64,000 bases of DNA from Thermoanaerobacteraceae bacterium (lineage in GTDB: Bacteria; Bacillota; JADQBR01): positions 104,121 through 168,120 of the forward strand of contig JACDOG010000002.1 in the NCBI GenBank assembly GCA_017656305.1, given 5' to 3'. Shown in pieces: positions 42,955 to 52,831 of the stretch. The notes under the pieces are model-generated. The model was not told the origin of the DNA. It was given only the letters and a program-made list of their open reading frames with translations, and ran no database searches. Position 1 is the first letter of the stretch, and the number at the start of each line of letters is the position of its first letter. Made by a program: the position numbers and the translations under genes.

Positions 42955-43104
42955 CTGGTGTTAATAACAGTTAAATATTGCGATAATTAACTACGGCTTT
43001 TTAGCTATTTCAAGTCGCATAAAAAGTAATGCGCTAGAGACAATAATTCTACGAGGTACGTTAACAGAGCAAATAAAGAATAATAAAAAGTGGGGTTAAA
43101 GGTT

Positions 43105-44109
43105 ATGCTGGATATCGCATTATTACTTATCAGTCTGGGTATTATTTTGCTCGGTGCCGAAGTATTTACCAACGGTATTGAATGGTTGGGAAAAAAACTG
43201 AACCTTTCTGAAGGTGCCGTGGGGAGTATTTTGGCTGCCGTGGGAACGGCGCTGCCGGAAACCATGATTCCTGTTATAGCTATCCTCTTCGGGCCCGGTG
43301 ATGCCGGGCACGAAATAGGCATCGGTGCTATATTGGGCGCCCCGTTCATGCTGTCTACCCTGGCCTTTTTTCTAGTAGGACTGGCGGCAATGCTTTACAA
43401 AAATCGCCGCTGCAATATCTTCAAGATGAAAGTTGACGTCACTACCATGAACCGGGATTTGAGTTTTTTCCTGATTGTTTATACGGTGGCGATGCTGACT
43501 GCCTTATTACCGAGCCATGGCCTGAAATTGCTGGTTATTATCTTTCTTGTGGGTGCTTACGCGTATTACGTGTGGAGCACCCTGCGTGAAGAGGGCGATT
43601 TGGGTGAAGACCATGACTTGAGCCCGTTATTTTTCAGCCATAAAAGTCCTGACCCGGATTTGAAAATTGTTGTCTTACAGGTGCTGGTAGCACTGGGGTT
43701 AATCATTTTTGGTGCCCATGAATTTGTGGCCAGCATTGAGCACCTGGCGGAAATGCTGGGCGTACCCCGGTTTATTCTGGCGTTAATCATCGCTCCCGTT
43801 GCTACGGAGCTGCCTGAAAAATTTAACAGTATTATTTGGGTTAGCAAAGGAAAAGATACTTTGGCACTGGGGAATATTACTGGGGCTATGGTCTTTCAAA
43901 GCTCCCTGATTCCGGCGCTGGGCATCGGGCTCACCGAGTGGAAACTAACTTTTCCCGCCATGATCAGTGCGGTACTGGCGCTGGCGTCCGCTTTTATCGT
44001 CTACCTACAGCTGCGCCAGCGGAAATATCTTACCCCGTATTCCCTGATGATCGGAGGAGCTTTTTACCTGGTCTTCGTTGTTCTGGTTGTAACCGGCGTC
44101 ATCCGCTGA
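43105..44109 (+). CDS. Sodium/calcium exchanger family membrane protein
   Basis: A 334-aa membrane protein with about ten helices in two inverted halves, the CaCA layout. The first alpha repeat is GSILAAVGTALPETMIPVIAI and the second ALIIAPVATELPEKFNSIIW, both with the conserved acidic residue. A short hydrophilic loop near 170-190 joins the halves. Ion specificity cannot be read. ATG 43105 is used; a GTG 15 bases upstream is possible. It is a single gene between two terminators. Confidence 0.88.
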   Translation: MLDIALLLISLGIILLGAEVFTNGIEWLGKKLNLSEGAVGSILAAVGTALPETMIPVIAILFGPGDAGHEIGIGAILGAPFMLSTLAFFLVGLAAMLYKNRRCNIFKMKVDVTTMNRDLSFFLIVYTVAMLTALLPSHGLKLLVIIFLVGAYAYYVWSTLREEGDLGEDHDLSPLFFSHKSPDPDLKIVVLQVLVALGLIIFGAHEFVASIEHLAEMLGVPRFILALIIAPVATELPEKFNSIIWVSKGKDTLALGNITGAMVFQSSLIPALGIGLTEWKLTFPAMISAVLALASAFIVYLQLRQRKYLTPYSLMIGGAFYLVFVVLVVTGVIR

Positions 44110-44286: not shown

Positions 44287-44730
44287 ATGAGTGCAATTGA
44301 CCCTTACCAGGCCGGCATGTTCAAAAGTAATCCGTATGCCAAAAAAAGAGATATCCTTGGTTCACTGGTAGTGGTGCTGGACGGTCGTTTGGAGGAACGC
44401 AACCTCCAGTTGATTGCCCCCATTTCACGGGCGGTATTACAGGGCGAGATCCACGAGCTGATTTTAACTGATGAACCTGAGGTGGGGCCAAAGAAAAAAG
44501 TTAACAAAATTGCCTACCTGGGCTTTTTTGAGGTCAGCCAGGGTGGAGTCATGGTTGTTGGCGACGAACTGTCTGTGGCCGAGAAAAAAGTGGGGACCGT
44601 TGCCGGTTTTGATGAGACCCATATGCCCAATCATTTGAACATTATTATTGCTACCGATCAGCGAGTCAGCGGACTGGAAAGAGGACTGGAACTGGGCATG
44701 AAAATATGTTGCAGTAAAGCCAACGCATAA
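44287..44730 (+). CDS. Unrecognised conserved-looking 147-aa protein
   Basis: No family assigned. The protein is soluble and mixed alpha-beta: a strand LGSLVVVLDGR near residue 28, an amphipathic helix LQLIAPISRAVLQGEI, a lysine-rich turn near 67-72, strands VNKIAYLGFFEVSQGGVMVVGDE and a C-terminal helix ending in two adjacent cysteines (ICCSKANA). AAAGGAGGG precedes the ATG. It is first in a four-gene run with RidA, a PLP enzyme and a FAD enzyme, so it probably serves the same pathway. A domain of unknown function such as DUF6917 is a possibility from memory only. Confidence 0.6.
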   Translation: MSAIDPYQAGMFKSNPYAKKRDILGSLVVVLDGRLEERNLQLIAPISRAVLQGEIHELILTDEPEVGPKKKVNKIAYLGFFEVSQGGVMVVGDELSVAEKKVGTVAGFDETHMPNHLNIIIATDQRVSGLERGLELGMKICCSKANA

Positions 44731-44817
44731 TGTTGCCAGCAAAGAAAATAATAAACCAGGAAGATTATAAAAAAATTCAATATTTAAGTCAACAAGACCA
44801 GTGAAAGGAGGACGGAC

Positions 44818-45276
44818 ATGTCTTTTGAACAAAAAGTGCAGGAGTTGGGATTGACCGTCCCGGAGGCTCCCAAGCCCGTGGCAGCGTACGTGCCTGCTGT
44901 TAAAGTGGATAACTATGTGTACACAGCGGGTCAAATTCCGTTTGTCAACGGGGAATTAAAATACAAGGGTAAGGTAGGAAAAGACCTAACTTTGGAACAG
45001 GGATACGAAGCAGCAAAAATCTGCGCGCTAAACTGTCTGGCGGCAATTAAGGGTCAGATTGGCAGTCTGGACAATATTGAAAAGATAGTAAAAATTACTG
45101 GTTTTGTCAGCAGTGCTCCGGGTTTTAACGACCAGCCGAAAGTAATCAATGGCGCTTCAGAACTAATCGGCCAGATATTTGGCGAACAGGGCCAGCATGC
45201 CCGGGCGGCTGTTGGTGTCAATGAATTACCTGTGGATGCAGCAGTTGAAGTGGAAATGATAGTAAAAGTTAAATAA
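44818..45276 (+). CDS. RidA-family enamine/imine deaminase-like protein
   Basis: A 152-aa RidA/YjgF protein. The family hydrolyses reactive enamines and imines released by PLP or flavin enzymes. The sequence VDNYVYTAGQIPFVNGE, the trimer-core helix and the carboxylate-binding arginine (Arg129 in HARAAVGVNELP) with VEVE behind it are present, so activity is plausible. It is 14 bases before a PLP enzyme and in one operon with a flavoenzyme, the two enzyme types that make such intermediates. AAAGGAGG precedes the ATG. Confidence 0.88.
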   Translation: MSFEQKVQELGLTVPEAPKPVAAYVPAVKVDNYVYTAGQIPFVNGELKYKGKVGKDLTLEQGYEAAKICALNCLAAIKGQIGSLDNIEKIVKITGFVSSAPGFNDQPKVINGASELIGQIFGEQGQHARAAVGVNELPVDAAVEVEMIVKVK

Positions 45277-45289
45277 GGAGGTTCAATCA

Positions 45290-46750
45290 ATGGCTCACAA
45301 ATATAAGTTTCAAATGTACAAAGACCTGCATGCCAATATAGCCAATATTTATGCTGATTTACGGAAAGCGGCCGATGATATCGGTATTCCCCAGGATATA
45401 CGCGGCAAGTTTGGTTTGACCGGTGCCATTTCCGGATGCCCGGCACCGCTGCGCAAGGACATCCTGGAAGCCAGTGAAAAGGGAGCCAAGGAAGTTATTC
45501 CTCTAGCTATACTGATGGACCAGATTCGGGAACTGGTAAAGGAAGTATATGGCGACGAGTATGATGCAGCGGCTACCAGCACCTGTGAAGCGGCATTATG
45601 GGTAACTTTCGATGCACTGTTCACTCCGCCCATGCAGGGGCGCGGGGACAGTTACCGTGCGCGTTACATTGCGCCCTACGAAAAGCACCTGCATCACCAG
45701 GGCAGTTACGGGCGGCCATTCCCGGGAAGGTTTAAGGATATTTTTGCGGACAGGGGTTCAACACCAGGTGAGTTAGGCTTTTATGGCAAGAGACAGAATA
45801 ACACCGACACGGTAATAGTACCGCTGGAAGGTGCTGACTACAGCGTTCACGGTATCAAGTATCACCCCGTACCGTTGCTGACTGGCGTGGACCCGGAAGC
45901 TTCCATTGAAAAGATGGCGCTCCATGCTGAAATTCACGAATCTATGCTTACCGGATTCACCTCTTTGGGATATGAGACTCCGGGTTACGGTTACGGAGCT
46001 AAGGACGAAGACGGTACTCCGCTGCTTCAGAAATTTATTGCTGACCTGGCTCATTCCTACGACCTGCCGTACGTTGTGGACAATGCATGGGGATTGCCCT
46101 TTGTTGGTCATGACCCGAGAAAAAGCGGAGCAGATGTCATTGTCTACAGTATGGATAAGGCGGCGGGTGCTGCCACCAGCGGTTTGATTATCGGTAAGGA
46201 AGAGTTTATGGTACTCATTCGCCGGGCGCTGGGTATGCACGGAGACCGCTGGGGAACTCCTGCCAGCTACGGTAAGGCAGCTTATGTAACCTTTGACCCG
46301 GGTAAAGAGGCACTGTTAACTCAGGTGCAAACGCTGAAAGTGCTGAAAGACAATCCGGAAGTATTTACAAAACCGGTAGATGATTTGGAGCGGATTATCA
46401 AGGAAGAGTTTGAAGCTCTGGATCCCAAGCTCAGAGAAGGTATCATTATCAGCAAGTCTTATAACTCCAAGGCAGTGGAAATCAACTACGAAGGCACCTG
46501 GAAGGACGGTAAAATGGGCATCCCAATCTTCTCCATCGAAGATATGTATGCCGGTACCAACCTGATTCAGACCGGCCTCAAGCAGATGGGTGTCATCCCG
46601 ACGGTAGCCTATGACGGAAACATCTATATCTCACCTGACTTGGGAACTACTGACGAAAACGGGCAGTTAAAAGAAGACATTATGCGTTATGGTATCAAGG
46701 CACTGGTTAAGCTGATTGAAATTCTCTGCAAGTATGCCGGTGTTCTCTAG
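45290..46750 (+). CDS. Fold-type I PLP-dependent enzyme of unknown specificity
   Basis: A 486-aa soluble protein. A PLP site is readable: Asp264 in YVVDNAWG, placed to contact the pyridine nitrogen, and Lys290 in VIVYSMDKAAGAATSG as Schiff-base lysine. The first 130 residues contain a glycine/cysteine segment (GLTGAISGCPAPLRKD) and TSTCEAALWV in the cofactor-loop position. The C-terminal small domain runs from about 340. It does not match a named aminotransferase, decarboxylase or SelA-like enzyme that I can recognise. The adjacent RidA and flavoenzyme suggest amino-acid chemistry through an enamine or imine. AAGGAGG precedes the ATG. Confidence 0.75.
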   Translation: MAHKYKFQMYKDLHANIANIYADLRKAADDIGIPQDIRGKFGLTGAISGCPAPLRKDILEASEKGAKEVIPLAILMDQIRELVKEVYGDEYDAAATSTCEAALWVTFDALFTPPMQGRGDSYRARYIAPYEKHLHHQGSYGRPFPGRFKDIFADRGSTPGELGFYGKRQNNTDTVIVPLEGADYSVHGIKYHPVPLLTGVDPEASIEKMALHAEIHESMLTGFTSLGYETPGYGYGAKDEDGTPLLQKFIADLAHSYDLPYVVDNAWGLPFVGHDPRKSGADVIVYSMDKAAGAATSGLIIGKEEFMVLIRRALGMHGDRWGTPASYGKAAYVTFDPGKEALLTQVQTLKVLKDNPEVFTKPVDDLERIIKEEFEALDPKLREGIIISKSYNSKAVEINYEGTWKDGKMGIPIFSIEDMYAGTNLIQTGLKQMGVIPTVAYDGNIYISPDLGTTDENGQLKEDIMRYGIKALVKLIEILCKYAGVL

Positions 46751-46767
46751 GCAAAAGGAGGATTAGC

Positions 46768-48051
46768 ATGAAAATTGTTGTAGTTGGCGGTGGCTGGGCT
46801 GGTTGTGCAGCCAGCATTACGGCTAAAAAAGCCGGAGCTGACGATGTTACGCTGCTGGAACGTACCGATATGCTGTTGGGAACAGGACTGGTAGGCGGCA
46901 TTATGCGTAATAACGGCCGGTTTACTGCCACGGAAGAAATGATAGCCATGGGTGGTAGCGACATGTTTGCGGCTACTGATGAAAAAGCACGCCACACCAA
47001 CGTGGAGTTTCCCGGCCACAAGCATGCCAGCCTCTATGACGTGGCGGAAATAGAACCGGCAGTGAAGAAAAGACTGCTGGATGCCGGTGTCAACGTCAAA
47101 ACCAAAACCAGGGTAAAAAATGTGGAAACTGACGGCAAGCGCATCACGGCAGTGATAACGGATAACGGGGAACGCTACGAAGCAGATGTTTTTGTAGAAA
47201 CTACCGGTACTTCCGGGCCGCAGGGCAACTGTTCCAAATACGGCAACGGCTGTGCCATGTGCATTTACCGCTGCCCCACTTTTGGACCGCGGATTAGTCT
47301 CGCTGCTAAAGCTGGTGCCGAAGAATTCATGGGTAGAAAAGGAGACGGCTCCATTGGCGCCATGAGCGGTTCTTGCAAGCTGCATAAGGAATCGCTTGCG
47401 GAGGACATTGTGCACCAGTTAAATGAAACCGGCGTAGCCTTAGTACCCATTCCCGAACATTTACGAAAAGGTGAAGAGGCTTTGGCTACCAAGGCGTGCC
47501 AGCAGTATGCCCTGAAGGAGTTTGATGAAAACGTGATACTTCTGGATACCGGCCATGCCAAATTAATGGCGCCATTCTACCCGCTGGATACCCTGAGACA
47601 GATTCCCGGGTTTGAAAATGCCAGGTTTGAGGACCCCTATGCCGGCGGCATAGGTAACTCCATACGTTACCTGGCCATTTCCTATCGGGATAATACTCTC
47701 AAAGTGGAAGGACTGGAGAACCTGTTTTGCGGCGGTGAAAAAGCAGGGCTGTTGGTTGGCCACACGGAAGCGATCTGTACCGGTACTCTGGCCGGTCACA
47801 ATGCCGTACGTTATGCTGCCAACAAGGATCTCCTGACGCTGCCTGACAGTTTGGCAGTGGGAGATGCCATCAATTACGTGGGCCAGCAGATGCGTACGGA
47901 AGAGGGTATTACCAAGAAATACACGTTCTCCGGTTCCGTATATTTCAACAGGATGAAGGAGAAAAACCTGTACACTACCGATATCGATGCAATAAAACAA
48001 CGGGTTGAAAGTGCCGGGCTGACCAACGTCTTCAGCCAGCCCGTAGTTTGA
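46768..48051 (+). CDS. FAD-dependent oxidoreductase (MnmG/TrmFO-like fold) with cysteine cluster
   Basis: A 427-aa flavoprotein. The FAD fold IVVVGGGWAGCAASITAKKAG starts at residue 3 and the second FAD contact is FCGGEKAGLLVGHTEAICTGTLAGHNAV near 320-345, as in the GidA/TrmFO group. Between them Cys155-x6-Cys162-x2-Cys165-x3-Cys169-Pro looks like a [4Fe-4S] site, unusual for that fold and arguing against a tRNA-modifying role. It is the last gene of the RidA-PLP operon and may oxidise an amine or amino acid to an imine. AAAGGAGG precedes the ATG. Confidence 0.75.
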   Translation: MKIVVVGGGWAGCAASITAKKAGADDVTLLERTDMLLGTGLVGGIMRNNGRFTATEEMIAMGGSDMFAATDEKARHTNVEFPGHKHASLYDVAEIEPAVKKRLLDAGVNVKTKTRVKNVETDGKRITAVITDNGERYEADVFVETTGTSGPQGNCSKYGNGCAMCIYRCPTFGPRISLAAKAGAEEFMGRKGDGSIGAMSGSCKLHKESLAEDIVHQLNETGVALVPIPEHLRKGEEALATKACQQYALKEFDENVILLDTGHAKLMAPFYPLDTLRQIPGFENARFEDPYAGGIGNSIRYLAISYRDNTLKVEGLENLFCGGEKAGLLVGHTEAICTGTLAGHNAVRYAANKDLLTLPDSLAVGDAINYVGQQMRTEEGITKKYTFSGSVYFNRMKEKNLYTTDIDAIKQRVESAGLTNVFSQPVV

Positions 48052-48068: not shown

Positions 48069-48098
48069 CCGGTACTCGAAAGCGAGTACCGGTTTTTT
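48069..48098 (+). terminator. Terminator of the RidA-PLP-FAD operon
   Basis: A perfect 10-bp stem CCGGTACTCG / CGAGTACCGG with an AAAG loop, followed by six T residues, 17 bases after the stop codon. Confidence 0.92.
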
Positions 48099-48351: not shown

Positions 48352-49149
48352 TTAGGTAAACAGATTTGTGTTTAACATGGCAATTTGTAAGGACTGTTTG
48401 GAACTGACCTGCTTCAGCAGCTGCCTGTGCTGGGTGTGATTTCCCAGACTGACCAGCTGTCTAAAATTCCTTGGGGCTACTTTTTCAGCAGTAACTTGCC
48501 ATTTGTTCAGGCGTTGCTCTAGCAGGGACGGTAACTGCAGGCAGGAAATTGTCACTGCACTTCTGGCAAACCGTTTTGCCACCGGTTCTACTAGCAGTTT
48601 GCCAAAGTTGGATGCTACAATCAGGGTATTATGGGCGGGGGTTAATTTGTTCAAACTCAGGACTGAGGGTTGATTGGAAAGTCTGATTGTCAAGCGCTTG
48701 TTCTGCTCGAGGAAATATTTTTCCCGTACCGAGTATACGTTCAAGGCCAAAATTACTAGGTTCTGACCGGGGAAACAATCCACTACCACGCCGGGAATGC
48801 TGACGTACTGCGGCTGCTGGTAGTGTACCAGGTGAACTGTGGTCATGGGGGATAGAGAATTTATTAATGAAGAAGCGGTAAAAGCAAAATACAACATGCC
48901 GGTGCCCGGAAAATGAAAGCTTTTAACATGTTGCACGCAGGTTTCTTTTAGGTGCGGCGGCTGTACCGGGTTCTGAAACTTGAAATCCATGTAGACGCAC
49001 CTTCCTGCCCAGTTGCAGTCGTTGCAGTCAGCGGAATTTCCCAAATAACTGCAAATTGGGCAGTAATTAACCTGCGCCAAGACGCACGGACATTTATTGG
49101 TTTCAAAGTCGGCACAAAGTTCCCGGGTAAATGACCTTTTTACCCGCAT
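48352..49149 (-). CDS. Cysteine-rich protein, possibly related to ferredoxin-reductase-type electron carriers
   Basis: A 265-aa protein I do not recognise firmly. The first 52 residues hold nine cysteines (C-x7-C-x-C, then CPIC, CNDC and single cysteines), enough for metal or cluster binding. From about residue 60 the pattern of strands (MTTVHLVHYQQPQYVSIPGVVVDCFPGQNLVILALNVYSV) recalls the flavin barrel of ferredoxin-NADP reductases, but the FAD-binding RxYS/T motif and an NAD motif are not convincing. AAGGAG precedes its ATG. It is a lone minus-strand gene between two operons. Confidence 0.55.
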   Translation of the reverse strand: MRVKRSFTRELCADFETNKCPCVLAQVNYCPICSYLGNSADCNDCNWAGRCVYMDFKFQNPVQPPHLKETCVQHVKSFHFPGTGMLYFAFTASSLINSLSPMTTVHLVHYQQPQYVSIPGVVVDCFPGQNLVILALNVYSVREKYFLEQNKRLTIRLSNQPSVLSLNKLTPAHNTLIVASNFGKLLVEPVAKRFARSAVTISCLQLPSLLEQRLNKWQVTAEKVAPRNFRQLVSLGNHTQHRQLLKQVSSKQSLQIAMLNTNLFT

Positions 49150-49705: not shown

Positions 49706-49954
49706 GTGAGCAAGTTGTTGGACTATGTCATGGACGCCTTGGACGTGGAGACGTTCCTGATATGCGATACGGAAGAGGAAGGACGCACCCTGGTGCTGGA
49801 ACTGATGAAAGAAATGGGATTTAGCGATATAGATGTTATCAACCTGGATTTTCAGGGGGTAGGAGCCCGTGTGAGAGTGCGGGCTTACATTCACCGCTCC
49901 GGGGATGAGTACGGTTGGCTGCAGTTGGATGGGGAGGCGAATGCCAATGGGTGA
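49706..49954 (+). CDS. 82-aa small partner of the B12 mutase-like protein
   Basis: A small acidic protein. It has an N-terminal helix, VETFLICDTEEEGRTLVLELMKEMGFSDIDVIN and a strand pair GVGARVRVRAYIHRSGDEYGWLQL. GTG 49706 follows AAGGAGGAG; a longer reading from 49622 runs through the upstream repeat and is rejected. The segment with LELMKEMGF and the strands after it faintly recalls the N-terminal dimerisation part of KamE (lysine 5,6-aminomutase beta), which the downstream fusion protein lacks. It overlaps that gene by 8 bases, so a complex is likely. No firm family. Confidence 0.55.
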   Translation: MSKLLDYVMDALDVETFLICDTEEEGRTLVLELMKEMGFSDIDVINLDFQGVGARVRVRAYIHRSGDEYGWLQLDGEANANG

Positions 49955-51776
49955 GAAGAAAAAAGTATTGCTGGCACCGTTTGATCCGGTTCATGACATC
50001 GGACTGAAGATGATCCGGCGTGGTTTGGAGGAAGCGGGTCATGAAACATACCTCCTGCCTCCTGACCTGCCTGCGGAGGAAATTGTCCAGGCAATCATGG
50101 ATAAAGAAGTGGATATGGTACTTATCAGTAGAACGCTGGGCTATGGTGTTGCCGAGCTCCTGTCCCGCTTTGCAGACCTGGTGGATGCCGCCGGTTTGCG
50201 TGACAAGGTGACTTTGGGAATAGGCGGTATGGCTATACGGCCCGAGCTGGCCGCAGAACTGGGCTTTGACGCCGGCTTCGGACCCGGCACAACCGTGGAA
50301 GAAGCCGTGGCTTTTGTTGAGGGGCGGGAATATAAAAAAGACGATGCCGGAGTCAAAAAGGAAAAACAGGATATCACCAGCGGCTATTCGTACAAGTTTG
50401 TCAATGAGAGACTGGGTGAAAAACTGGAACGGGTTGTCGATTTAATAGAACAATGGGTTAAGGATAAAACCAGCCCCGGGGTAAGAAGGGCGGTTGCCAG
50501 GGAAGAACTGTGGGATGTGGACCGCTGGCGCAACCGTGAAGGTAATCCCGAGTTTGACAAGGAGTATCCGCAGCTGTGCGGTGAGCAGCCGAAAAACTTT
50601 TATTTGAAGGGTGAACTGCACCCCAAAACCAGGCGCTTTACCAGAGAGGAAGTTAGGGCGCTGGAGGAATTCTTGGAGGAAACCAAGCAGCGGATAGTAT
50701 TAAATAAAGTACAGCACACCAGGGAGCGTCCCGTAGTTTTCAACCAGTACGGGACCGGCTGTCCCTTTATGGATATCGGGCATATCAAGGTCAGTGAAGC
50801 CTGGGGCGCCGACGGGGTGGTGCATTTTGACCCGTCCTGGGGAGCCAGAACTGAAGGGTTCTTTGACGGCTTCCTAACCCACCAGGAGGACGGTACGGTT
50901 ATTACTCCGGCAAATCTCAACCGGATTCATGCGGCACTGGAACCGTCAACCCTGTGGCAGGTACGGGCGCACCGGGGTTTAAATACTCCGGAGACCGTGG
51001 TGCTGGCCGGGAAAATTGGCGCTGACATGACCAAAATCAACATCTCTTACGGTTCCCTGAGTGCGGGGACGGATCCGGAACGGCTAACTGTGGACGGCTA
51101 CTATGCCATGCGGTACGCGGCCAAATACAATATGCCCTTTGACGTGGTTACCAATGAAGAACTAGCAGGGGTTCCGGCTCATAAGGCCTTTGCCGGCATG
51201 TTAATCGTGGCCACCCTTGGTATTCGACTGGGAGGCAGGCCCATACTGCAGCCGCTTTTTGCCTATTCTCCCGAGGCCATGATTGGTGAACAGATGGAAG
51301 ACAACTACGTGGACTTTAATGCGGCAAAAATCTATGCCCTGAAAAGCATCATTGACGCGCCCATTTGGCCGGGAGCACCTATCGGCTTTCTAACACAGAC
51401 GGAAGACCGGGTGCAGTCTTCCATGACTACGGGACTGCATGCGTGCCTTGCTGCTTCCCTGGGTGTTGACGCCATTTCCATAGCGTCCTCCGATGAGGCG
51501 TATTCCGGCGGGCCTATTGCTGTGCCTTCACGCACGGACACCTTACAGGCAGTTCAGGAAGGCTTTCGTTTTTTCGGTTCTACGGGTATCAGCCCGTCGG
51601 ATAACGCCAGGAAGTGGGGCGAAGAAATGGTAGTGCAAATTGAGCGGGTAGTTGATGATGTCATCAAAATGGGAGATTTTGTCCAGGCTCTGTATGAAGG
51701 CGTGTTGGGTACTCGTGAAGAGGGTGCTTACCCCGGAAGAACCGGCAGAGGAACAGTGGAAACCTCGGTGGATTAG
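49947..51776 (+). CDS. Cobalamin-dependent aminomutase-like protein, KamE-type B12 domain fused before a KamD-type barrel
   Basis: A 609-aa protein. Residues 5-125 are a B12-binding domain close to KamE/OraE (AGLRDKVTLGIGG, ELGFDAGFGPGT), with His16, Gly19 and Ser61 in the ligand-loop positions; the aspartate is three instead of two residues before the histidine. Residues about 150-600 resemble KamD (TEGFFDGF, NLNRIHAAL and a TIM-barrel pattern). OraE has the opposite domain order. The family's PLP lysine, 11 residues after the histidine, is Leu27 here. Substrate unknown; aminomutase or other radical mutase chemistry is inferred. ATG 49947 follows GGGGAGG. Confidence 0.75.
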   Translation: MGEKKKVLLAPFDPVHDIGLKMIRRGLEEAGHETYLLPPDLPAEEIVQAIMDKEVDMVLISRTLGYGVAELLSRFADLVDAAGLRDKVTLGIGGMAIRPELAAELGFDAGFGPGTTVEEAVAFVEGREYKKDDAGVKKEKQDITSGYSYKFVNERLGEKLERVVDLIEQWVKDKTSPGVRRAVAREELWDVDRWRNREGNPEFDKEYPQLCGEQPKNFYLKGELHPKTRRFTREEVRALEEFLEETKQRIVLNKVQHTRERPVVFNQYGTGCPFMDIGHIKVSEAWGADGVVHFDPSWGARTEGFFDGFLTHQEDGTVITPANLNRIHAALEPSTLWQVRAHRGLNTPETVVLAGKIGADMTKINISYGSLSAGTDPERLTVDGYYAMRYAAKYNMPFDVVTNEELAGVPAHKAFAGMLIVATLGIRLGGRPILQPLFAYSPEAMIGEQMEDNYVDFNAAKIYALKSIIDAPIWPGAPIGFLTQTEDRVQSSMTTGLHACLAASLGVDAISIASSDEAYSGGPIAVPSRTDTLQAVQEGFRFFGSTGISPSDNARKWGEEMVVQIERVVDDVIKMGDFVQALYEGVLGTREEGAYPGRTGRGTVETSVD

Positions 51777-51778
51777 CC

Positions 51779-52831
51779 ATGGCACTGCGTTACCAGGTTA
51801 TTGGTATTGCCGGCACTGCCAAAAACACGGGGAAAACTACCACCACCAACTTTTTGCTGGAACAATTAAAGGAAAGGGGATTGGTCCCCGGGTTGACCAG
51901 TATCGGGTATGATGGTGAACGGCTGGACAACGTCACCGGTTTGCCGAAGCCGCGCATTCCGGTCGATCCCGGTACCGTGGTGGCGGTTGCTTGCCGGTGC
52001 CTGCCCGTCAGTACGGCCCAGGTTGAAGTAATGGAGGAGACGGATATCGGTACTCCGCTGGGCAGCGTCGTGTTGGGAAAGGTTACCGGGGCGGGACAGG
52101 TGGTGGTGGCAGGCCCCAACAAGAGCAGCGGGCTGCGAGAGGTGCTGGAGAAACTGAAAAAGCTGGGGCCGGATCTGATCCTGGTGGATGGGGCATTAAA
52201 CCGGCTGGCCCCCATGATTGAAACCCAGGGCTTCATTCTTGCAACCGGTGCTGCACGTACTGCGGACATCACCCGTCTGGCCTATGAGACGCACAGTCTG
52301 AATTACCTTTTTAACTTCCCGCCAGCGTCAGATAACAACAGGTATTCTTCAGTGACTCTGGTCACTGGCGAAAAAAGGCACCAGTTTAACTTCAGTTCCA
52401 TCTTTACTTCCGGCCAGCTGGGCGAAGTGATAGAAAGGCTGTCTGTGGAAACGCAAAAAATTATCATACCCGGTGTGGTGCGGGAGGAACTGTGGAAACA
52501 GCTGGGAAAGGAGTTAATGACGGCCGGCATTAGTCCCGTAATTTGTGTATCCGATCCCATCAAACTGGCTCTGGCGGGTAGTGTGGGCAACCTGCACCGG
52601 TTGTTTGAGGAACTGGAAGAGAAGGGTATTAGGATTGAGGTAAACCGGCCCCTGCCGCTGCTGGCTATTACCGTAAATCCTTTTTACCCGAAATACCGTT
52701 TTGAGGTTGAAGACTATGAACCGGCCTATATCGATGCCGGGCAGCTGCTCAGTGCTATTAGAAAGGTAGTAACCGTTCCTGCTGTTGATGTTAAACAAAA
52801 CGGGAGGGACTTGATGAAAGTGCTGCTGTAA
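51779..52831 (+). CDS. KamB-like reactivase P-loop protein
   Basis: A 350-aa protein with Walker A GTAKNTGKT (residues 12-20), LTSIGYDGERLDNVTGLPKPRI, and LILVDGALNRLAP. This pattern resembles KamB, one subunit of the factor that exchanges damaged cobalamin in lysine 5,6-aminomutase; the memory-based match is moderate. It starts 2 bases after the mutase gene and is surely co-expressed. No KamC-like second subunit is seen next to it, so it may work alone or with a partner elsewhere. Confidence 0.68.
   Translation: MALRYQVIGIAGTAKNTGKTTTTNFLLEQLKERGLVPGLTSIGYDGERLDNVTGLPKPRIPVDPGTVVAVACRCLPVSTAQVEVMEETDIGTPLGSVVLGKVTGAGQVVVAGPNKSSGLREVLEKLKKLGPDLILVDGALNRLAPMIETQGFILATGAARTADITRLAYETHSLNYLFNFPPASDNNRYSSVTLVTGEKRHQFNFSSIFTSGQLGEVIERLSVETQKIIIPGVVREELWKQLGKELMTAGISPVICVSDPIKLALAGSVGNLHRLFEELEEKGIRIEVNRPLPLLAITVNPFYPKYRFEVEDYEPAYIDAGQLLSAIRKVVTVPAVDVKQNGRDLMKVLL

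Follow-up and report, generated by a model that had tools for sequence, protein, structure and literature searches.

A four-gene run with RidA, a PLP enzyme and a flavoenzyme as half of a conserved gene set that also holds a predicted B12 mutase

Oxidative ornithine fermentation comprises Orr, OraS/OraE, Ord and OrtA/OrtB, and only a few natural adenosylcobalamin mutase reactions are, to our knowledge, known. Lysine 5,6- and ornithine 4,5-aminomutase have been described as rare enzymes that combine B12 and pyridoxal phosphate (PLP) (PMC3958899). Rid proteins are reported to hydrolyse imines that arise from PLP enzymes and flavin adenine dinucleotide (FAD) amine oxidases (PMC4433059, PMC5619798), and their genes are known to cluster with those of both enzyme types (PMC4433059). 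Here we describe a four-gene run, encoding a DUF6917 protein, RidA, a PLP enzyme and a FAD enzyme, in a 64,000-nt stretch of a Thermoanaerobacteraceae bacterium (contig JACDOG010000002.1, positions 104,121 to 168,120; the whole stretch is referred to as the window). Together they make up half of a set of about seven genes that is widely conserved among oxygen-avoiding bacteria and whose remainder is found in a B12-mutase cassette (mutS, mutL and a reactivase gene) farther along the window:

44287..44730, + strand: DUF6917 protein, 147 aa (Pfam PF21891, 166.5 bits against a cut-off of 27)
44818..45276, + strand: RidA-family imine/enamine deaminase, 152 aa (PF14588, 86 bits; PF01042, 70.1 against 27.3 bits)
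45290..46750, + strand: fold-type-I PLP enzyme, 486 aa, with Asp264/Lys290; no family above cut-off
46768..48051, + strand: FAD oxidoreductase with MnmG/GidA-like fold, 427 aa (PF01134, 124 bits)
48069..48092, + strand: intrinsic terminator of the four-gene unit, 10-bp stem CCGGTACTCG-AAAG-CGAGTACCGG, then TTTTTT
49706..49954, + strand: mutS, small subunit like the KamE N-terminal domain (GTG start assumed)
49947..51776, + strand: mutL, adenosylcobalamin-type mutase with N-terminal B12 domain (B12-binding, 58 bits) and KamD-like TIM barrel
51779..52831, + strand: KamB-type reactivase (NF052386, 231.9 bits against an equivalog cut-off of 210)

The intergenic gaps within the four-gene run are 87, 13 and 17 nt, and each start is preceded by a Shine-Dalgarno sequence (GGAGGGAATTTATG, GGAGGACGGACATG, GGAGGTTCAATCAATG and GGAGGATTAGCATG, respectively). 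The open reading frame, ribosome-site and stem calls are thus in agreement with the original prediction, made from the sequence of the window, of a closely spaced run in which all genes share a strand, have strong ribosome sites and end at a single terminator. The mutase cassette (49706-52831) begins about 1.65 kb beyond the run and is a separate transcription unit. Promoter-like sites in the scanned region are no more frequent than expected by chance (9 found, 8.5 expected).

Conservation of the neighbourhood was assessed in 80 loci from a scan with the PLP protein at an identity of at least 62%; order and direction were counted in the 50 loci with full 8-kb flanks, and phyletic distribution in 101 relative genomes. 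DUF6917 is a near-constant partner of the PLP gene (71 of the 80 loci), and mutS is found nearby in 61, mutL in 58, KamB and the FAD gene in 48 each, and RidA in 45. All four genes of the run are present in 21 of the full-flank loci, and the pathway genes are co-directional in 48 of these 50, in many different, interleaved orders, which argues that the neighbourhood is not a product of chance. The genes do adjoin in other genomes, and the co-occurrence that the original prediction had put forward as a check is observed both for the four genes and for mutL. The full-length PLP enzyme occurs in 11 of the 101 relatives, and mutL and DUF6917 occur in the same 10 genomes, all of them within those 11 (Fisher p 6e-13 for co-presence of the PLP enzyme and mutL). 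Furthermore, mutL was found in 19 of 21 genomes checked, most of which have no mutL in the sampled PLP locus; the copies of Sporomusa ovata and G116 among these 19 read in two pieces. The two S. ovata pieces (L057, G121:C4:726559-728371) overlap, and the second contains in-frame stops. A second cluster in the window's own genome holds all seven genes contiguously, in the order DUF6917-FAD-mutS-mutL-RidA-PLP-KamB. The suggestion that the cassette acts together with the four genes is therefore upheld by synteny, by shared relatives and by this contiguous second copy, and the pathway genes very probably form one functional unit. Record titles of the loci span several Bacillota lineages, Atribacteria, Ignavibacteria, Candidatus Adiutrix and a spirochaete; one locus titled Candidatus Sumerlaeota (L075) matches a genome placed in the window's phylum (G026), and its title is probably wrong.

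The idea of the four genes as a self-contained set, in contrast, is not supported, since the FAD family is broader than the set and the PLP gene is linked more tightly to the mutase than to RidA or FAD. Pairwise distances among PLP, mutL, KamB and DUF6917 correlate with Spearman coefficients of 0.65-0.83, compared with 0.43-0.64 for most pairs that include RidA or FAD, kinship being ignored in both cases. Minimal clusters with the composition regulator-mutS-mutL-PLP exist, and PLP and mutL are immediate neighbours in such clusters, for example L069, L072 and L178. The FAD family is present in 33 of the 101 relatives, most of them without the pathway; the cluster type of the FAD enzyme (at least 66% identity) is present in about nine, eight of which have the PLP enzyme and mutL. 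The core is DUF6917-PLP-mutase, and RidA and the FAD enzyme are frequent optional accessories.

The small subunit mutS is matched to KamE by hhalign with 91% probability (E 9e-7), and its OAM_dimer score of just 13.7 bits lies under the cut-off. The B12 domain of mutL is matched to KamE with 99% probability (E 3e-19) and aligns with OraE too; the D, H and G of its DPVHDIG sequence (DxHxxG, the base-off B12 motif) are invariant in 45 sequences. In the predicted structure (predicted local distance difference test score, pLDDT, 88.5) the B12 domain is placed N-terminal to a barrel whose best fold match is the alpha subunit of lysine 5,6-aminomutase, KamD (8t0v_A; Z 32.9, root-mean-square deviation 2.8, 384 residues aligned), followed by glutamate mutase GlmE (6h9e_B, Z 26.9) and OraE (3kp1_A, Z 26.8); hhalign aligns mutL with KamD at E 8e-6 over 402 columns. 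In the alignments with OraE and KamE, mutL is missing the stretch that carries the PLP Schiff-base lysine (Lys144 beta/Lys629), the PLP-phosphate loop RxxGQS of KamD falls in a 9-residue gap, and the position of KamD Ser238 is an invariant Arg in mutL; the PLP-contact roles of the loop and of Ser238 are taken from PMC3958899. On these domain and PLP-site comparisons, mutS-mutL resembles a KamE/KamD whose domains have been divided anew and put in another order, with the PLP site lost by alignment. The PLP site of its known relatives thus appears to be lost from mutL, and its sequence makes mutL a new branch within the lysine 5,6-/ornithine 4,5-aminomutase group (KamD/KamE/OraE), with swapped domain order. 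Several arginines of mutL are invariant (R301, R340, R343 and R379), but its identity to GlmE, 11%, is too low to match them safely with the substrate-binding arginines of that enzyme. A role in corrinoid methyl transfer was considered unlikely, because the best matches of the barrel are adenosylcobalamin mutases and the neighbouring gene encodes a KamB-type reactivase.

In the PLP enzyme, Asp264 and Lys290, which the original prediction had called clear, are invariant across 51 homologues and align with the PLP-binding Asp and Lys of O-acetylhomoserine (OAH) sulfhydrylase-type enzymes; the protein also has a notable His-rich stretch (His133, His135 and His136). Neither Pfam nor NCBIfam yields a family over cut-off. 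The AlphaFold2 (AF2) model (pLDDT 89) has a generic type I fold with Z of about 22 to many fold-I enzymes. Foldseek ranks SelA and SepCysS first, and VIA-align gives threonine aldolase, PhnW, NifS and SHMT tied, so that aldolase, transaminase and desulfurase types are represented equally and no match stands out. The earlier view of an enzyme with no recognisable specificity agrees with this result, and neither sequence nor fold places the enzyme in a known aminotransferase clade; the proposed route from active-site structure prediction to a substrate led to no inference and was dropped, the fold matches being tied. By its sequence and model the enzyme would represent an undescribed family that fits no known clade. 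One relative at 60% identity (L129, G051) has no partner genes beside it, and no mutL was found in its genome.

RidA exceeds the cut-offs of both PF14588 and PF01042 and scores under that of TIGR00004 (52 against 106 bits), which marks it as a divergent family member. The HAR-AVGV motif, including the arginine, is kept in 39 RidA sequences; an arginine is needed for imine-deaminase activity of Rid proteins (PMC4433059), and with this catalytic residue retained in the sequence, deaminase activity is predicted. DUF6917 is fused to RidA in three genomes (L036, L065 and L078), and no convincing relative of known structure was found for DUF6917. Our literature searches turned up no published description of this gene system, no paper naming DUF6917, and nothing linking RidA to a B12 aminomutase.

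The FAD enzyme matches the broad GIDA Pfam domain, but an identity as the tRNA-modifying enzyme MnmG/GidA was rejected, as it scores 38 bits against the MnmG equivalog cut-off of 524.85. Cys155, Cys162, Cys165 and Cys169 are invariant in 29 sequences from inside and outside the clusters, which suggests an Fe-S cluster. Family members of 53-60% identity stand alone close to sporulation or Fe-S genes. Across L112-L126 (45-60% identity), the solitary relatives lie either in a conserved locus with dacB and with genes like spmA/spmB and rluB, or in the vicinity of genes for Fe-S proteins and a Na/Ca exchanger. One small genome (G021/G116; L127, L128) has about 16 stretches that match the FAD family, some beside genes for SsuC-type ATP-binding cassette transporters.

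The Ignavibacteria and Atribacteria genomes that were tested yielded no FAD enzyme; their clusters contain instead a diaminopimelate (DAP) dehydrogenase (DAPDH), an epimerase of a divergent DapF type or a complex of the amine-oxidase type. DAPDH lies directly before DUF6917, inside the operon, in four Ignavibacteria loci. One Atribacteria contig has, in this order, a YheO regulator, RidA, DUF6917, PLP, TRAP and Liv transporters, a CuyA-like PLP enzyme, DAPDH, a second DapF, mutS, mutL and KamB; the second DapF is the divergent one, and the canonical DapF lies elsewhere. Another Atribacteria contig has a racemase and the amine-oxidase-type complex in the run. A member of the same DapF subfamily (51% identity) lies near the second cluster of a Bacillota relative (G001), and two further pathway genomes have one next to DAPDH. 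DAPDH and the divergent DapF fit a step of epimerisation and oxidative deamination, which makes DAP a candidate substrate. In Sporomusa, Heliorestis and Atribacteria, genes for biosynthesis of the aspartate family lie close to the cluster, but they are not separable from the ordinary chromosomal neighbourhood. Ignavibacterium (L110) has a gene for an NhaC-like antiporter, and there is another close to the second cluster of G001. The loci L168, L191, L194 and L195 have the divergent DapF subfamily, three of them with a PAS-type regulator and three with DAPDH, and several of their genomes also have an ordinary DapF.

We propose, as an even proposition, that the seven genes (DUF6917, RidA, PLP, FAD, mutS, mutL and KamB-type reactivase) constitute a pathway of anaerobic amino-acid catabolism. 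Without PLP, and in the manner of glutamate mutase, the mutase would rearrange the carbon skeleton of an amino acid with the aid of adenosylcobalamin, and it would be kept active by the KamB-type reactivase. Oxidative deamination would follow, with the FAD enzyme forming an imine for hydrolysis by RidA; an intermediate of imine or enamine type is plausible. In lineages without the FAD enzyme, oxidative deamination would be taken over by the DAPDH-type enzyme or the amine-oxidase complex. The PLP enzyme and DUF6917 would finally cleave or eliminate, in place of OrtA/OrtB of ornithine fermentation. The order of these steps is provisional, and the chemistry of B12 rearrangement, oxidative deamination via an imine, and cleavage or elimination by PLP/DUF6917 is assigned tentatively, by analogy with ornithine and glutamate fermentation. 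That an aminomutase scaffold has lost PLP and become a PLP-independent carbon-skeleton mutase, in a new anaerobic pathway where the PLP enzyme and DUF6917 perform the next cleavage, is a possibility to which we give somewhat less than even chances. Several observations weigh against the proposed seven-gene pathway. RidA and the FAD gene are each absent from about 40% of loci, so that the oxidative step is not uniform. The genomes G108 and G112 hold DUF6917-PLP-RidA with no detectable mutL, and this module may therefore have a role of its own. The FAD enzyme is not recognisable as an amine oxidase or as any enzyme that has been characterised, and relatives outside the pathway share the same conserved residues. 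Loss of PLP binding in mutL rests on alignments at 14-38% identity. An arrangement RidA-DUF6917-PLP with a DUF1805 protein nearby is seen in L094 and L109, in whose genomes no mutL was found.

The separate transcription units in the window and the undetected mutL of G108 and G112 would be accounted for if DUF6917-RidA-PLP-FAD were an enamine-handling operon of its own and the mutase an unrelated neighbour. This reading is largely refuted by synteny, given the distribution over the same 10 of 101 relatives, the contiguous second copy in the same genome and the interleaved orders in many loci, and we hold it to be very unlikely. Catabolism of 2,6-diaminopimelate or a close diaminodicarboxylate, with a DapF-type epimerase and DAPDH joining the mutase and PLP steps, is suggested by DAPDH within the operon of the four Ignavibacteria loci, by the Atribacteria run that joins DAPDH and divergent DapF with the mutase while the canonical DapF lies elsewhere, by the same DapF subfamily near the second G001 cluster, and by the DAPDH-DapF pairs of the two additional genomes. 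The divergent DapF (at least 44% identity) is present, however, in just 4 of 50 pathway genomes, and only the ordinary DapF was found in the window's genome; relatives of DapF and DAPDH can use amino acids other than DAP, DAPDH could have its role in lysine synthesis, and we know of no chemistry by which B12 would rearrange DAP. A DAP substrate is accordingly an unlikely, if not negligible, explanation.

The other two alternatives concern the mutase itself. It could still move an amino group, with the PLP chemistry shifted to the separate fold-type-I enzyme, which holds or hands over the substrate; such a split aminomutase would explain why a member of the aminomutase group has no PLP site, and why PLP and mutL form a tight pair that is immediately adjacent in minimal clusters. 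In the known enzymes, however, the mutase itself carries the PLP that binds the substrate as an external aldimine (PMC3958899), and no PLP-mutL fusion or evidence of an interface was found, which leaves a split enzyme decidedly unlikely. An ordinary pathway through lysine 5,6- or ornithine 4,5-aminomutase would be in line with the KamD-like barrel and with a reactivase above the KamB equivalog cut-off, but neither KamD nor an OraE over cut-off was found in the window's genome, and the mutL alignments show deletions at the PLP lysine and at the phosphate loop. Moreover, KamD and this mutase coexist in G001, G002 and G076, and the two therefore probably do different jobs. The ordinary pathway was rejected on these grounds, and we consider it most improbable.

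Other features of the surroundings are of less consequence for the seven-gene pathway. Upstream of the run lies:

43090..44109, + strand: Na+/Ca2+ exchanger (PF01699, 107 bits)

The exchanger adjoins the pathway in 6 of the 80 loci and is also found beside stand-alone FAD genes; it is probably a lineage-specific neighbour outside the pathway. Between the two transcription units, on the - strand (48352-49149), lies a gene for a FAD/NAD electron-transfer-like protein, PRK05802-like at a score below cut-off, relatives of which are present in five loci. The 464-aa transporter c8 gives no clue to the substrate, as neither Pfam nor NCBIfam assigns it a family above cut-off, and the window has no Rfam match to a cobalamin riboswitch at gathering score.

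The proposal would add a third aminomutase branch, apparently without PLP, that occurs in the cultured genera Sporomusa, Heliorestis, Tepidanaerobacter and Desulfosporosinus and is directly testable there. DUF6917, a PLP family that has no name and part of an equally nameless flavoenzyme family would each gain a function; a PLP-independent carbon-skeleton mutase, if true, would be a new adenosylcobalamin mutase reaction, and diaminopimelate, if it is the substrate, would imply a dedicated route for use of peptidoglycan-derived DAP in anoxic sediments. The locus also holds an annotation trap, in that the reactivase scores as the lysine-aminomutase subunit KamB, while KamD, the usual partner of KamB, was not found in the genome.

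Compared with oxidative ornithine fermentation, the set shares a B12 mutase with a small subunit, a PLP enzyme with a small partner and, in some lineages, a DAPDH-type dehydrogenase, an epimerase or racemase and an NhaC-like antiporter; it differs in a mutase that has no PLP site by alignment and carries its B12 domain N-terminally (C-terminally in OraE), in a PLP enzyme of fold type I, and in the additional FAD enzyme and RidA, and OrtA/OrtB were not recognised. The KamD-like barrel, KamE-like B12 domain, mutS with its likeness to the KamE N-terminus and KamB-like reactivase relate the cassette to D-lysine 5,6-aminomutase (KamD/KamE with KamB), whereas here KamE is split with its B12 part fused ahead of the barrel, PLP Lys144 and the RxxGQS loop are deleted, and Arg takes the position of Ser238. 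Glutamate mutase (GlmS/GlmE) resembles the cassette in being free of PLP, as the alignments suggest for mutL, and in the GlmE barrel as next fold match, but mutL has the B12 domain fused to the barrel and a KamB-type reactivase beside it. RidA beside a PLP and a flavin enzyme, finally, recalls the described Rid-deaminase neighbourhoods (PMC4433059), from which the present set is distinguished by PLP and FAD enzymes of families without known function and by the B12 mutase as one of its members.

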